Position numbers and translations under genes: made by a program | Origin: Crocinitomicaceae bacterium | Lineage (GTDB): Bacteria > Bacteroidota > Bacteroidia > Flavobacteriales_D > Crocinitomicaceae | Direction of reading: 5' to 3' | DNA: 64,000 nucleotides | Assembly: GCA_024643365.1 (NCBI GenBank) | Contig: JAHENC010000025.1 | Coordinates: forward strand, 1 to 64,000 | In this document: positions 55,869-64,000 of the stretch, piece after piece | Position numbering within the stretch: position 1 is the first letter of the stretch | Layout of the letters: every line of letters begins with the position of its first letter | The notes under the pieces: model-generated | Told to the model about the DNA's origin: nothing | Databases searched by the model: none | What the model saw: the letters and a program-made list of their open reading frames with translations, nothing else

Positions 55869-56250
55869 TTATTTTTTCTCTTTCAATAATTTTTCGATCA
55901 ACATTTTCATTTCATCAATTTGTTTTTGCTGAGCTTCAATTTGCAATTGTTGCTCTTGAATTCCTTTTGTTAAAACAGGAATAACTGAATTATAATCTAC
56001 GGAAAGAATTTTATCTTGATCATTGCCTTCTTTCACCACAAACGGAAGTACTTTTTGAATTTCCTGGGCAATAAATCCATTCTCTGATTTGTTGTAATCA
56101 GTTGACTCGATGGAGTTTTTCTTATCATAATGAACAGGGTTCAATTTCATAATGATATCTAAACTATTTTGTAATGGTTGAATGTTGGTTTTTAAACGTG
56201 CATCAGAAGTTAATTGTGTTCCATTCGACCAAATCGTTCCACTTGTTTTC
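55869..56250 (-). pseudogene. Tail-fibre S74 chaperone domain, 3' remnant
   Basis: The last 125 residues are a peptidase S74 / intramolecular chaperone domain: TSDARLKTNIQPL, HYDKKNSIES, NGFIAQEIQKVLP, SVDYNSVIPVLTKGI, then a coiled-coil end. In complete proteins this domain follows a long fibre or surface region and cuts itself off. Here the frame upstream of about 56250 is not homologous (it starts at a TTG with Cys/Arg-rich residues), so the front of the gene is missing. The break lies next to the paired repeats at 56320-56379, so a recombination event probably removed it. Confidence 0.7.
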
Positions 56251-56319
56251 AATACATGAATTGATAACAAAAGATAAAACCTGTATCCCTTTGCCAGAGT
56301 GGTTTTTCGAAATTTTCGC

Positions 56320-56379
56320 GAGCAACAAATGAGCAACTACTCATCAGATTTCGGCTTCTTTGAGCAACATGTAAGCAAC
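56320..56379. promoter_or_regulatory. Two pairs of GAGCAAC repeats (recombinase-site-like)
   Basis: GAGCAAC at 56320 and 56331 (11 bp apart), and GAGCAAC at 56362 with AAGCAAC at 56373 (again 11 bp apart). The 11-12-bp spacing is the same as for the tandem repeats before the two recombinases (4710/4722 and 31384/31395). No recombinase gene remains here. Inference: a leftover integration or operator site. Confidence 0.45.
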
Positions 56380-57188: not shown

Positions 57189-57917
57189 ATGGGACAATTT
57201 GATGACGCGAAAGAACTAGTAGGACATTGCAAGCCGACCTTTAACAAAATTGAGCAGGCTTACAAAGAATCATTGCACGACAGGGAAATTAAAAAAACTC
57301 TTCTGATTGAAATAAAAAATTTTATGGAGAATTTACGTTCTGCTTTGGACTTTACTGCCCACGGACTTTTCGACAAGTATGGTAACAGCACACCTTCAAA
57401 GCCAAGAATATATTTTCCATATGCTTGGGCTTCCTTAGACAAAGTACATTTTCAATCAAATAATATTATTGAAAAAAATCTTCCTGGAGTAACTGCGAAT
57501 AGACCTGATATTGCAACAAAAATTGAAAGCTACCAGCACTTTGAAAATGTTGCTAATAGTTGGTTGCCAAAGTTTATGGAGTTAAATAATGAAAACAAAC
57601 ACCAACAGTTAACTCCTCAAATAAGAAAAGAAACTAAACAATTAAATATATCTTCTGGAGGAGCTTCAATTTCACTCGGACAAGGAGCTTCAATTAGTTT
57701 AGGACATGGGACCTCGATTTCTTTTGGTGGACTCGTCATTCCGGGAGGACAGTCCTTCGATGCCAATAACCCTGCAAAGATCATCGGGCAAGGTAAACAA
57801 GAAGTCATTACTTGGGTATCTTTTCTTTTTTCAACAAATAATGAATTGGTTCTACCTCTATTGAAACAAGCTTTGGATGGGACAGAAAAAATAGTTAATG
57901 AATTATCAAACATTTAA
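57189..57917 (+). CDS. Unknown protein with Ser/Gly octapeptide repeats, partner of protease
   Basis: 242 residues, no family recognised and no signal or membrane segment. Residues 1-150 are mainly helical (IEIKNFMENLRSALDFTAHGLF resembles helical HEPN-like bundles but has no RxxxxH motif). Residues 158-181 are three octapeptide units, GASISLGQ, GASISLGH and GTSISFGG, which suggest a small beta-turn or beta-solenoid piece. The C-terminus is helical again. It is followed after 11 bp by a trypsin-like protease gene, so the two are most likely one operon. A sensor or substrate of the protease is a reasonable guess, but it is only a guess. Confidence 0.6.
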   Translation: MGQFDDAKELVGHCKPTFNKIEQAYKESLHDREIKKTLLIEIKNFMENLRSALDFTAHGLFDKYGNSTPSKPRIYFPYAWASLDKVHFQSNNIIEKNLPGVTANRPDIATKIESYQHFENVANSWLPKFMELNNENKHQQLTPQIRKETKQLNISSGGASISLGQGASISLGHGTSISFGGLVIPGGQSFDANNPAKIIGQGKQEVITWVSFLFSTNNELVLPLLKQALDGTEKIVNELSNI

Positions 57918-57928
57918 TAATAAACACA

Positions 57929-58621
57929 ATGTTCAGAAATGTAAATAAAACAGTTAGGGAATCAATTTATGGAGTGCTTTGTAAGTCAGCAGTTGGAAAC
58001 AATCAAATTGTTTGTGGGACAGGTACAGCTTTTATGATTGCTCCGGGTGTTTGTGCGACCGCTGCACACGTATTACATTTAGACGGAGATAAAACAAAGA
58101 CTTTACATCAGAGTATTGAATTAATTCGTGCTCCTGACATTGGAACACCAATGTTAGTTGCAACGCTTATTGTTGAAGACACAGAAAGAGATTTAGCTCT
58201 TATTAAAATAACAAATCCGACAAACAGCTCGGTAATTCCATTATATAAAACAAAAATAGATTCAGGCATAAATACTGGAGCTTTAGGCTTTCCACTTGCG
58301 CAAGTTTCTTTTGTAAATAATCAAATTGCATTTAATCTTCTGGAACGTTTTCAAGGAGCTTACATTTCTGCATATAACACTGCAGCTTATCCTCACGCTA
58401 ATCCCAATAATATAACGTTAGACACTTATGAAACGGACTCTTTGACTTATAGTGGTTCAAGTGGTTGTCCGGGCTTTACGGTTGAAGCAAAATGTTTCGG
58501 TATGGTTATCGGGTCTGTATCAGAAAATAATAAAGACAATTCCGCTCGACTAGCAATCTCTCTTTGGGTTCCATCAATGGACATTATAAACTTTGCAGCT
58601 GGAAATGGAATAAAAATATAA
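57929..58621 (+). CDS. Trypsin-like serine protease, no signal peptide
   Basis: 230 residues of the chymotrypsin-like fold with the full triad: His47 in CATAAHVLH, Asp88 in ERDLALIKI and Ser178 in YSGSSGCPGF. There is no export signal, so the enzyme probably acts in the cytoplasm, which is unusual for the DegP/HtrA type; no PDZ domain is attached. Small cytoplasmic trypsin-like proteases are effectors in several bacterial defence operons. It follows the 242-residue unknown protein by 11 bp and sits between HTH and AbiE genes in the accessory region. Confidence 0.82.
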   Translation: MFRNVNKTVRESIYGVLCKSAVGNNQIVCGTGTAFMIAPGVCATAAHVLHLDGDKTKTLHQSIELIRAPDIGTPMLVATLIVEDTERDLALIKITNPTNSSVIPLYKTKIDSGINTGALGFPLAQVSFVNNQIAFNLLERFQGAYISAYNTAAYPHANPNNITLDTYETDSLTYSGSSGCPGFTVEAKCFGMVIGSVSENNKDNSARLAISLWVPSMDIINFAAGNGIKI

Positions 58622-58801: not shown

Positions 58802-59383
58802 ATGGAACTACTCCGTCAACATATCAAGCAAGGTGAAGTATATCGCCGTTCTGACCTAGAATATTATTCCACGGCCATAGATCGGCATTTAGCGTCGCTC
58901 ACTAAAGATGGAACATTGGAGAAATTGAACCAGGGCTTGTATTACGCACCAAAGCAATCTAAATTTGGGGCTGTTCCACCGGATGATCGCCAAGTAGTAG
59001 AACGTTTTCTGAAGGACGACGATTTTCTTTTGGTTTCCCCAAATACATTTAATTCATTAGGGCTTGGACTTACACAGCTTTATAATACAACATGGGTTTA
59101 CAACCATAAGCGTAAAGGCGAGTTTCAACTGAATGGAAAAACCTTTGAGTTCAAACTAAAATCCGCTTTCCCTAAACATATCTACAGGGAATATTTACTC
59201 GTTGATTTATTAAATAATTTAGATAACCTAGCGGAAGACCAAATCCATGCTGTATATAAATTGCCATCAAATGTACGCAATTTCGATACAGATGTGTTGA
59301 TGAAGGCTACTCAACAATATGGAACAGGCAAAACAAAGCGAACTTTAAAATCCATCGTTAGAAACGTACTACAACATGCTTGA
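58802..59383 (+). CDS. AbiEi-type antitoxin (DUF6088-like)
   Basis: 193 residues. The N-terminal winged helix (LLRQHIKQGEVYRRSDLEYY) is followed by the AbiEi body with EKLNQGLYYAPKQSKFGAVPPDD and LVSPNTFNSLGLGLTQLYNTTWV. This matches the DUF6088 / AbiEi antitoxin family. In the type IV AbiE system the antitoxin represses its own promoter and counters the toxin without direct binding. It overlaps the toxin gene by 8 nt. Confidence 0.85.
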   Translation: MELLRQHIKQGEVYRRSDLEYYSTAIDRHLASLTKDGTLEKLNQGLYYAPKQSKFGAVPPDDRQVVERFLKDDDFLLVSPNTFNSLGLGLTQLYNTTWVYNHKRKGEFQLNGKTFEFKLKSAFPKHIYREYLLVDLLNNLDNLAEDQIHAVYKLPSNVRNFDTDVLMKATQQYGTGKTKRTLKSIVRNVLQHA

Positions 59384-60329
59384 TTTTATTCATAACGACC
59401 CGGAATTCAAGGAACTTCTCTCCATCGTATCCTCCAAAAAAGGAATTGATATTACATTAATTGAGAAGGACTATTGGATCATGCATGCGTTGTTTTCCTT
59501 ACAACAACAGGGAATTGAGTTTGAATTGAAAGGAGGCACTTCGTTATCGAAAGGATTTGGCTTAATTCATCGCTTTTCAGAGGACATTGACATTCACATA
59601 CGAACCAATTTTGGTTTAGAAATCGAAGGAAAAGAAGATAAACCCAAAGTAAGAGCGGCACGCAAAGAATTTTATGATGTGCTCGCCAAATCACTTTCAA
59701 TTAATGGAATTATTGAAATTAAGCGAGATCATGATTTTGATGACCCCGAAAAATACCGCAGCGGGGGAATTCGCTTGTATTATCAAAGTTACACACCAAC
59801 ACTTGAAGGACTTAAAGATGGTATTTTACTCGAGGCTGGTTTTGACACCATAACACCCAATCAGCCCATCGATATTTCATCCTGGATTTGGGAACACCTT
59901 GTTTCAATAAATGCAAGCAGTAATTACATCAACAACACAGCCATTGGCGTTCAATGTTATCACCCAGGATATACGTTGATTGAAAAACTGCAAACGATCA
60001 TCAGGAAATATCGTAACAAAGACAATCCTGGTGCTTCTGATGATAAAAACTTTATGCGCCAATACTATGATGTATATTGTTTATTGGGTGATTCTGACAT
60101 TCAATCATTCATAGGCAGTTCTGAGTACTTAGCACACAAAGCGGTAAGAATAAAAGGAGCTGACAAGCAAATACCACTACAAGAACATCCGGCCCTGTTA
60201 TTAACAGAAACTGAATTTCGAGAATCATTCAAATCTCGTTATCAATCCACTTCAAAGCTATATTACAACGGTCAGCCTGATTTTGAAGAGGTGCTAGCCA
60301 GAATAGACATGTTCTTGCCTATACTTTGA
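59376..60329 (+). CDS. AbiEii/AbiGii-type nucleotidyltransferase toxin
   Basis: 317 residues. The nucleotidyltransferase site is clear: GGTSLSKGFG at 53-61 and the acidic pair Asp70 and Asp72 in FSEDIDIHI. It matches the AbiEii/AbiGii toxin family. Related toxins transfer nucleotides to tRNA acceptor stems and stop translation, causing abortive infection against phage. Start overlaps the antitoxin end by 8 nt, so both are made together. Confidence 0.92.
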   Translation: MLDFIHNDPEFKELLSIVSSKKGIDITLIEKDYWIMHALFSLQQQGIEFELKGGTSLSKGFGLIHRFSEDIDIHIRTNFGLEIEGKEDKPKVRAARKEFYDVLAKSLSINGIIEIKRDHDFDDPEKYRSGGIRLYYQSYTPTLEGLKDGILLEAGFDTITPNQPIDISSWIWEHLVSINASSNYINNTAIGVQCYHPGYTLIEKLQTIIRKYRNKDNPGASDDKNFMRQYYDVYCLLGDSDIQSFIGSSEYLAHKAVRIKGADKQIPLQEHPALLLTETEFRESFKSRYQSTSKLYYNGQPDFEEVLARIDMFLPIL

Positions 60330-60749: not shown

Positions 60750-60944
60750 ATGAAAGAACTAAGAGATTGGATAGCAGAATTTAAGACTGAAAATGCTGAA
60801 CTAAATGGCTTTGTTGCAAAACTAGAAGGATTCATTTCTGATGCTGGTTTTAACATGTCAAAATTCGAGAATGCTGTTAATCAAGGTCTGAAAAATAAGG
60901 AAGAAGAAATTAGAAAAACTTTTACTGAAGATATTGAAAATTAA
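60750..60944 (+). CDS. Small coiled-coil protein, partner of ATPase
   Basis: 64 residues from the ATG at 60750 (MKELRDWIAEFKTENAELNG). The sequence is acidic and almost all helical with heptad-like spacing (ENAELNGFVAKLEGFI, KNKEEEIRKTF). No family is known to me. Its end overlaps the ATPase gene by 11 nt in the next frame, and that gene has no ATG, so translation of the ATPase probably depends on this gene. It may be a small subunit that plugs or regulates the ATPase, comparable to short partners of other two-gene defence systems, but this is inference. Confidence 0.6.
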   Translation: MKELRDWIAEFKTENAELNGFVAKLEGFISDAGFNMSKFENAVNQGLKNKEEEIRKTFTEDIEN

Positions 60945-63360
60945 GAAAATTACTGTTGAAAATTTCAGGGGACTTCGGTTGCCTGTTTCTATTGATTTTG
61001 TCAAAAATAATAAGACGACCTCTGCGTTGATTTATGGCAGAAACGGAACAGGTAAAAGTTCAATGGTAGATGCTTGGGAATGGCTTCATAATTTCTATAT
61101 TGAAAATTTAAGCCGAGAAGGTGTATTATTAACTGATTTACCACACAAAGCATCGGGTGGAATTAACAGCTACATTTCAGTTGACTTCCAACACACTTCA
61201 ATAAATAATGCAACCGCTACATTCAATCCCAGGAAAATAACCACGCCAACTACGACAGGAGAATACAATGAATTCAGAGCATTAAGTACTTACCCAAATT
61301 ACTTGCGATACACAGACCTAAATGATTTTATTTGTAAAAAGCGTAAAGCTGCGAGATACGAATACATTGCAAAATATTTTGGGCTTGAAAAATTTTCATT
61401 GCTTCAAGATACATTACAATCAAGTCTTAATAAGCAATCAATTAATTTACAAAAACTTAAAACAGATTTTGAAACAAGTAACAATGCAATAAATATGATT
61501 ACAGGATTGACAACGGTTGATGAAACTACTGCTGTTAAATTCATCAACACGATTGCAGCAAAACATAAAATAACGATCATCACAAGTTTCAATCAAGCAG
61601 AAAAAGTCAAGACTGCTCTACAAAAAATCGTTCAGAAAAATCCGGTTACAAAAGAACTTACTGAGTGGAAAGCGTTTCAATTAAGACAAAACCAATTTTA
61701 TCCAATCACAACTGCAAAAGCAAATTGCGGAGCACTTGAAGAATTATTTACTGACTTGAAGCAGAATGAGGAAAATATAAAACAACTTATTCTATCGTCT
61801 CTTTACGAACAAAGCATTGAGGTAATTACCAAACTGGAAGAGAAAACCATGTGTCCAGTTTGCGATGAAACTTTTGATGGTGATTTGTTGCAGCATATTA
61901 CAGATAAACACAATTCTTTGGCAGCACTGAATAAAAGGAAAATTGAATTTGAATCAAAAAAAACATTATTAGAAAAACAGTTCGAAGGAATTTCAAGAAA
62001 AATAGCCGCTATTGAAGCTGAGAGTAGTTCTGTTATATTGTCGGTATTTCAAACTTTCTTTAATGATTTATCAACAATCACTTCATCGCTGCCAACTTTA
62101 ATTACAACGCTTAAAATACCGCTTAAAGATTTAGCAACACTATTAATCAGTAATGAAACAGCAATTGCAAAAATAGAAACCATAATTTCCGATGAAGTAG
62201 CGAGTAAAAAGCTCGTTGCTGATAAAATTGCAGTTTTGTCAAGAGATGAAACTACAAAAACTTTAGCACAGGATTACACAAACCTTTCAAACATTATTGA
62301 CAATTTCAAAAGTCATTCAATCAATAAGGCGAAAGTGACATATTTGGAAGACATCACAGATAATCTTCAAACGTTTTTCAATTCCCTTACTACATACATT
62401 CAGACAGAAATTCAAAATACTTTCACTGTTATTTCCGCTGATGTAGTTGATTACTTTAATGTTCTAGAAAACTCAAATCCTGACATTAAAAATCCTGCAT
62501 TAAAACTTATTACAGGGAAAGATAAAGCTGTTGAATTAGAGATTGAATTTGCTTCTGAGAAAATTACACCTGCGTTTAAATTTCTGAGTGAAAGTCAAGT
62601 AAATAGTTTTGGTCTGGCCTTCTTTCTAGCAGCAGTAAAACGTTTCAACAAAGATTTCAAGTTTTTTATTTTAGACGATGTTGTAAATAGTTTTGATAGT
62701 TTTAAAAGACCAAGAGTCGCAAAGTTAATTGCTTCCAAATTCAGTGAATTTCAAGTTTTAATGATTACCCACGACCAAATTTTCTTTGATACTGTGCAAA
62801 GAAAATTTCCTGAATGGCAACGATATAAATTCACATCTTGGGATTATTCAACTGGACCTAAATTTAAACCGTCAAAAAACTATTTGGAAGAAATTAAAGC
62901 ATATCTAGAAGAGGATAATCCTATAACTGCTGGTCAAACGTTAGGTAAATATTTGGAATGGATTTTTGGCATTCTTTGTCAGAATATGGAAACGCCAATT
63001 CCTTACAGGGTAGAAAATGTTTATACTCTTTCAGACTACTACAATCCACTTGCAAAAAGATTTAGAGATAAAATCAAACTCCCCAATAAACAAAACAACC
63101 TTTTTGAATTACTTGATGAATTTGAAACTGGAACAATATTCAGAAACTATTGTGTGCACTGGAAAAATGAAGCGACTCAGTTCACTTCAGAGGAGATTGA
63201 GGCAATTTTTAAAAAGTGGATTGAAATTGAAGAAGTCATATTTTGCACCTCGTGTAAGTCATTTGTTCATTATCAAAATATTAGCAAAACAAACTATGTT
63301 AGGTGTGAATGTGGAACAGTAAACTTACTCGACGAAAAACATTTTAATAATGCCAAATAA
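60934..63360 (+). CDS. SMC-like AAA ATPase with zinc motif, HEPN-type motif and zinc ribbon
   Basis: 808 residues. ATPase half 1: Walker A GRNGTGKS at 35-42. A long coiled coil (about 160-500) carries CPVC (307-310) followed by His321 and His326, i.e. a zinc hook or C2H2 unit at its tip. ATPase half 2: signature-like LSESQ (551-555), Walker B FFILDDVVNSFDS (Asp581-Asp582) and the switch MITHDQ. The tail holds RNYCVH (737-742), which matches the R-x4-H nuclease motif of HEPN domains, and a zinc ribbon CTSC (771-774)...CEC (791-793). The layout resembles RloC/PrrC-type anticodon nucleases, in which a HEPN RNase is controlled by an SMC-like ATPase. Start codon is a TTG in an overlap with the upstream gene; see findings. 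Confidence 0.85.
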   Translation: MKIKKITVENFRGLRLPVSIDFVKNNKTTSALIYGRNGTGKSSMVDAWEWLHNFYIENLSREGVLLTDLPHKASGGINSYISVDFQHTSINNATATFNPRKITTPTTTGEYNEFRALSTYPNYLRYTDLNDFICKKRKAARYEYIAKYFGLEKFSLLQDTLQSSLNKQSINLQKLKTDFETSNNAINMITGLTTVDETTAVKFINTIAAKHKITIITSFNQAEKVKTALQKIVQKNPVTKELTEWKAFQLRQNQFYPITTAKANCGALEELFTDLKQNEENIKQLILSSLYEQSIEVITKLEEKTMCPVCDETFDGDLLQHITDKHNSLAALNKRKIEFESKKTLLEKQFEGISRKIAAIEAESSSVILSVFQTFFNDLSTITSSLPTLITTLKIPLKDLATLLISNETAIAKIETIISDEVASKKLVADKIAVLSRDETTKTLAQDYTNLSNIIDNFKSHSINKAKVTYLEDITDNLQTFFNSLTTYIQTEIQNTFTVISADVVDYFNVLENSNPDIKNPALKLITGKDKAVELEIEFASEKITPAFKFLSESQVNSFGLAFFLAAVKRFNKDFKFFILDDVVNSFDSFKRPRVAKLIASKFSEFQVLMITHDQIFFDTVQRKFPEWQRYKFTSWDYSTGPKFKPSKNYLEEIKAYLEEDNPITAGQTLGKYLEWIFGILCQNMETPIPYRVENVYTLSDYYNPLAKRFRDKIKLPNKQNNLFELLDEFETGTIFRNYCVHWKNEATQFTSEEIEAIFKKWIEIEEVIFCTSCKSFVHYQNISKTNYVRCECGTVNLLDEKHFNNAK

Positions 63361-63948: not shown

Positions 63949-64000
63949 ATGGAATTAGAAACCTGGTTTAAAACAAAAAAGTATCCTCATATCGGTTTAC
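63949..64000 (+). CDS. Partial ORF, putative reverse transcriptase (N-terminus only)
   Basis: Seventeen residues are visible from the ATG at 63949 before the window ends: MELETWFKTKKYPHIGL. The string WF-x3-KYPHIGL resembles the first residues of bacterial defence reverse transcriptases that begin with a YPHIGLP- or YLHFGLP-like motif (recalled, not searched). The structured stretch directly upstream and the AbiE and ATPase neighbours make a retron- or DRT-type defence RT the best guess. The seven conserved RT blocks and the YxDD box are outside the window, so the call cannot be confirmed here. Confidence 0.4.
   Translation, partial: MELETWFKTKKYPHIGL

Follow-up and report, generated by a model that had tools for sequence, protein, structure and literature searches.

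We consider it fairly probable that the gene pair at positions 60750 to 63360 of the window (the whole stretch of 64,000 nucleotides that was analysed) encodes a two-gene and probably abortive immune system, in which an ATP-gated sensor of invader DNA would release a HEPN RNase, in a manner similar to RloC without being RloC. By analogy with Rad50, LmuB, and RloC, the Rad50/LmuB-like ATPase would dimerise through its zinc hook and sense abnormal or invading DNA, and ATP-driven engagement of the heads would then pair the C-terminal HEPN domains. The composite site, to which each chain would bring one arginine (R737 in this protein) along with E675, N738, and H742, is predicted to cleave RNA, perhaps tRNA, and this cleavage would halt the infected cell. 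The pair is unnamed and widespread in bacteria and archaea, although it may already be catalogued, for example in the ABC-ATPase survey of Krishnan et al. 2020. If this reading is right, a widespread two-gene RNase switch is added to the immune repertoire, from Bacteroidota to haloarchaeal BREX loci. The original prediction, made from the sequence of this locus, was mostly right about the system, its HEPN fold, its layout, and its additions to RloC, and it failed in the motif attributed to PrrC and in the constancy expected of Arg737. It is the relocation of this arginine that we regard as a more interesting result than the confirmation of the rest.

Layout of the gene pair

Both genes are on the plus strand. 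The first one (60750 to 60944) has an ATG start and encodes the small acidic partner of 64 aa (pI 4.6), with its 3' end lying 11 nt within the second gene (60934 to 63360), which has a TTG start and encodes an ATPase-HEPN-zinc ribbon protein of 808 aa whose best profile match, and nearest solved relative, is Rad50. The pair is retained in four close relatives (L002-L005, 52-79% identity), where the ATPase gene has an ATG start one codon earlier, at the spot where the window has ATA-TTG; because ATA replaces the relatives' ATG, TTG is the only usual start codon and the likely start of the window ATPase. From the N-terminus onward, this protein contains the Walker A motif GRNGTGKS (G35 to S42, 61036 to 61059), the zinc-hook CPVC (307-310) with H321 and H326 between coiled-coil arms (residues 307-326, 61852 to 61911), the ABC signature LSESQ (residues 551-555, 62584 to 62598), the Walker B motif FFILDDVVNSFD with D581/D582 (residues 577-588, 62662 to 62697), the HEPN-like domain of the predicted structure (residues 648-768, 62875 to 63237), and the C-terminal zinc ribbon, from CTSC (771-774) to CEC (791-793) (63244 to 63312). 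Two short motifs of the HEPN-like domain concern us most, namely GKYLE (residues 671-675, 62944 to 62958), which is the R-x3-E site with Gly at the Arg position and the invariant E675, and RNYCVH (residues 737-742, 63142 to 63159), in which R737-N738-x3-H742 forms the canonical HEPN motif. An ORF and residue check bore out both reading frames and every motif that had been listed beforehand.

The C-terminal HEPN-like domain

A model of residues 636-808, built from five close sequences with a middling pLDDT of 67.5, has six helices and a poorly defined zinc ribbon. In the realigned structure list (VIA), ranks 1-16 are all HEPN or HEPN-toxin entries with Z from 8.4 to 5.6, led by 4nqf (Z 8.4, 122 residues at 3.7 A) and including 1wty (7.4) and HepT-type toxins (about 6.5 to 7.3), and the first unrelated match appears at Z 4.9, with helical proteins from there downward. 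A Z of 8.4 is modest for a helical domain and a middling model, and taken alone it could reflect a common helical arrangement; we nevertheless consider the predicted HEPN fold likely, because the top ranks are uniform and the HEPN motif is present. This motif, R-x4-6-H with a polar residue after Arg, is found in the window protein and in only 12/33 members of its family with the domain. Foldseek by itself was weak (nothing with E under 0.4), and the isolated C-termini gave nothing above the Pfam cut-off, with a weak hint of HEPN_Apea (E 0.0022) in L005. The full-length model, built also from five close sequences, reached a pLDDT of 44 and gives no placement of the domains or of the partner.

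One arginine in two alternative places

By means of tblastn and whole-genome searches we collected a family of 36 members with the hook-type ATPase. In those with the HEPN domain, E675 and H742 are invariant (33/33) and residue 738 is Asn in 31/33. Column 671, four residues before the Glu, is Arg in 21/33 and Gly in 12/33, and column 737 is Arg in 12/33, which are exactly those with Gly671; no member has both arginines together (0/33), and none has neither (0/33). Five shorter ABC-HEPN ATPases outside the hook family (L018, L041, and L043-L045) also have R-x3-E, and the single-arginine pattern thus holds in 38/38 (the 33 members plus these five), which are not 38 independent cases because the sequences share ancestry, the pattern going back to two or three events. 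A tree built on the ATPase part requires three changes of arginine state, or two once the long-branch rows are removed; with these rows, the HEPN-less ones, and L134 (a partial member of the window clade) all left out, an AU test weakly disfavours that the R737 state arose only once (p 0.041). With R-x3-E in the outgroup, the site of the window clade probably goes back to one of RloC type, and the active-site arginine appears to have been relocated between lineages, not lost.

The triad of PrrC and RloC is R-x3-E-x36-52-H (Davidov and Kaufmann 2008, PMC2610378), and in the RloC of G. kaustophilus it was proven by mutation to be R692, E696, and H737 (PMC2610378); the attribution of R-x4-6-H to PrrC in the original prediction was therefore wrong. 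The ordinary HEPN site is R-[polar]-x3-H (PMC3710099), and most of the AAA_13 proteins that we compared have Asn at position -4 of the His (NDGSH and similar). It had also been expected that Arg737 and His742 would both stay constant; this holds for His742 (33/33) and fails for Arg737, a failure that by the letter of the prediction would refute it but is compensated, since each of the 21/33 members without Arg737 has the R-x3-E arginine instead.

Could the HEPN domain be a sensor that binds RNA or nucleotides, with the effector elsewhere, instead of the metal-independent endoRNase typical of the HEPN superfamily? Some HEPN families do bind RNA without cutting it (PMC3710099), and Arg737 is not conserved, but the invariant Glu and His, together with an arginine always in one of two places, make up the pattern expected of a catalytic site, and this points to an RNase and leaves the sensor reading quite improbable. 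If the family is indeed one of RNases, these natural variants bear on how the PrrC/RloC enzymes (R-x3-E...H) and the ordinary HEPN nucleases (R-x4-6-H) can be the same enzyme, an equivalence that becomes testable by a two-residue swap because both placements occur in one family with the Glu/Asn/His scaffold otherwise unchanged.

Comparison with RloC and PrrC

As predicted, the domain order is that of RloC, with an ABC ATPase, a CxxC zinc hook in the coiled-coil insert (here CPVC 307-310), and a C-terminal HEPN RNase-like domain in a protein of similar total length. Most relatives of the window protein also share the R-x3-E...H layout, the Asp-Asp Walker B is likewise found in the AAA_13 proteins compared, and the family profile matches the AAA_13 (RloC/PrrC) proteins with 99.4% probability from the ABC signature through R-x3-E. 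One could then see here simply a divergent RloC anticodon nuclease, an enzyme known for excising the wobble nucleotide of tRNA, given the identical order of parts and an R-x3-E and N-x3-H common to the relatives and to AAA_13 proteins. We find this improbable, since in Pfam the window protein does not match AAA_13 even with E allowed up to 1, and it lacks R-x3-E, with Gly671 at that site and its arginine beside Asn738 instead, its E675-H742 spacing is 67 versus 36-52, and the isolated HEPN profiles of its family and of RloC give no significant match (5-8%). Besides, the family adds a terminal zinc ribbon and a small overlapping partner gene, both of which had been noticed as foreign to RloC and are real and conserved (the partner in 34/36 members, the four ribbon cysteines in about 27-29/33). 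An identity with RloC was rejected on these grounds (AAA_13, R-x3-E, partner, and ribbon), and the window protein is RloC-like in its working more than in its identity. Across the window's whole genome, nothing matches AAA_13 with an E of 1e-30 or below. As for the ribbon itself, it would probably aid RNA binding or the positioning of the HEPN domain.

PrrC is likewise an ATPase-gated HEPN anticodon nuclease, but it differs from the window protein in being only 341-416 aa long, in having no hook insert, and in being linked to a type I R-M system.

The ATPase part, Lamassu, and other ABC-ATPase systems

In the alignment, the CxxC and D582 are each present in 35/36 family members, and the two histidines that follow CPVC are largely confined to the clade of the window protein, H326 being present in 6/36. 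ABC ATPases usually have a catalytic Glu where the window ATPase has Asp582, and because an invariant Asp stands for the catalytic Glu, the sequence suggests a slow ATP turnover, which would suit a latch and not a motor.

LmuB, mad3, and other PADLOC models match most of the ATPase part, the best being LmuB models (up to 2.5e-30 across residues 1-618 of L009), although the significant match of the window ATPase to LmuB models is one that it also has to Rad50, mad3, and others. This leads to the alternative of a single-chain Lamassu-like system, in which an LmuB-type sensor would carry a C-terminally fused effector and the small protein would take the LmuC role. Lamassu does have a CPxC hook and a small partner (PMC10586767), and the window pair shares with it the Rad50-like hook ATPase with sequence kinship to LmuB. 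Set against this likeness, the window effector is fused at the C-terminus in contrast with the separate LmuA, no LmuA gene adjoins the pair (the trypsin-like ORF at 57929-58621 lies beyond AbiE), Walker B has Asp582 where Gln is typical of LmuB, and HEPN is not in the list of LmuA effectors of PMC10586767, all of which makes us see this alternative as rather doubtful compared with an RNase switch of its own kind.

The ABC-HEPN fusions APECO1_4465 and ERFG_01251 (PMC3710099) are also found in mobile islands or near CRISPR-Cas; where PMC3710099 describes them, no partner or ribbon is reported, and they are set apart from the window protein by description and not by sequence. DndD/DndE and PbeC/PbeD (CxC ABC ATPases, PMC10853773) also combine a coiled-coil ABC ATPase with a small protein, but they are hookless or have a CxC hook, in contrast with the CPxC hook of the window protein, and have no HEPN tail, and DndE is a ribbon-helix-helix protein.

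The small acidic partner

A small upstream ORF of 53-81 residues adjoins the ATPase gene in 34/36 members, usually overlapping it by 4 to 26 nt and often by 4 nt. In the window, this small gene is real, given that its dN/dS versus L002-L004 is only 0.06-0.24, as under purifying selection. The partner is negatively charged in 29/29 computed cases, with a pI of 5 or less in 27/29; in haloarchaea, acidic proteins are expected anyway. The partner of the window has no Pfam match above the cut-off and no PADLOC match at E up to 1, where a protein so short and fast-evolving could be missed. The profiles of the partners of different clades show no significant homology (best 31.5%), their sequence drifting too fast for that, and our impression of a shared helical pattern among them was dropped, having no support from this profile comparison.

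The exceptions in the family that bear on the role of the partner are few. The haloarchaeal L047 and L048 (654-657 aa) end before the HEPN domain, without ribbon and with no HEPN remnant in the next 900 bases, and keep the hook ATPase and the partner, whereas L016 (573 aa) keeps the HEPN domain without the hook region and without a recognisable partner; L025 likewise has no recognisable partner. Since L047 and L048, which could be decayed copies, retain the partner without HEPN, and L016 has lost it together with the hook region, the partner probably serves the ATPase/hook and not the HEPN domain. It would then be a regulatory subunit that possibly keeps the switch inactive as long as DNA has not displaced it, and because L047 and L048 keep it without HEPN a role as direct HEPN antitoxin seems less likely.

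That role is the core of another explanation, a toxin-antitoxin pair in which the small protein directly neutralises the HEPN RNase, the main function being the maintenance of plasmids or islands. A small acidic gene that comes first and overlaps a larger toxin-like gene, the many plasmid-borne members, and the AbiE toxin-antitoxin pair adjoining the window pair would all fit; nonetheless, we judge it unlikely in view of the partner kept without HEPN in L047/L048, of the HEPN kept without partner in L016, and of a large hook ATPase that is superfluous for a plain toxin-antitoxin pair. Within the favoured reading of an immune switch, a bolder version, to which we give only a minor chance, is that of an unnamed, domain-crossing immune family whose HEPN catalytic arginine switched from one helix to another on at least two occasions (from R-x3-E of RloC type to the canonical R-N-x3-H) with its function kept, and whose fast-evolving acidic mini-protein is a DNA-mimicking lock on the ATPase.

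Family spread and genomic neighbourhood

The members come from Bacteroidota, alphaproteobacteria, one gammaproteobacterium, actinobacteria, and haloarchaea; many are on plasmids, and many are in defence neighbourhoods. The family is presumably mobile, judging from its patchy spread, given that the pair is missing from the other genomes listed for the genus of the window. The window locus is likely a defence island because an AbiEi/AbiEii pair lies directly upstream (58802-60329) and a Drt2-type anti-phage reverse transcriptase begins about 590 bases after the ATPase (63949-64000 onward, L132:3941-5509, PADLOC E 1e-138). Elsewhere, the L009 pair, in a haloarchaeal BREX-5 locus, has pglX on one side and pglZ on the other, L046 has R-M genes nearby and an AbiE pair downstream, L023 and L026 have restriction (R-M) genes nearby, and L017 a DUF499 gene. 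The expected occurrence of the pair in defence islands was thus found, with AbiE, Drt2, BREX-5, and R-M neighbours. Phage records gave no match for the window protein or for a distant member, and scans of viral contigs yielded one single copy, on a phage-like contig, and otherwise nothing or mostly P-loop look-alikes; L028 is located on a phage-like contig.

Several other reading frames deserve mention. The trypsin-like protease ORF (57929-58621) is similar to the protease parts of the RT-Protease_XI, LmuA, and Avs1b models, and for the preceding ORF (57189-57917) Pfam gave nothing above the cut-off. On the minus strand, the ORF at 55869-56336 resembles by eye a tail-fibre S74-type self-cleaving chaperone end (SDARLKTNIQ...). 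The second ABC-ATPase group (L041, L044, L045, L043, and L018) has about 490-520 aa, no hook, and a HEPN-like end with R-x3-E and N-x2-S-H, and L015/L040 is a relative of this short group split into ORFs, with one TAG stop within the match.
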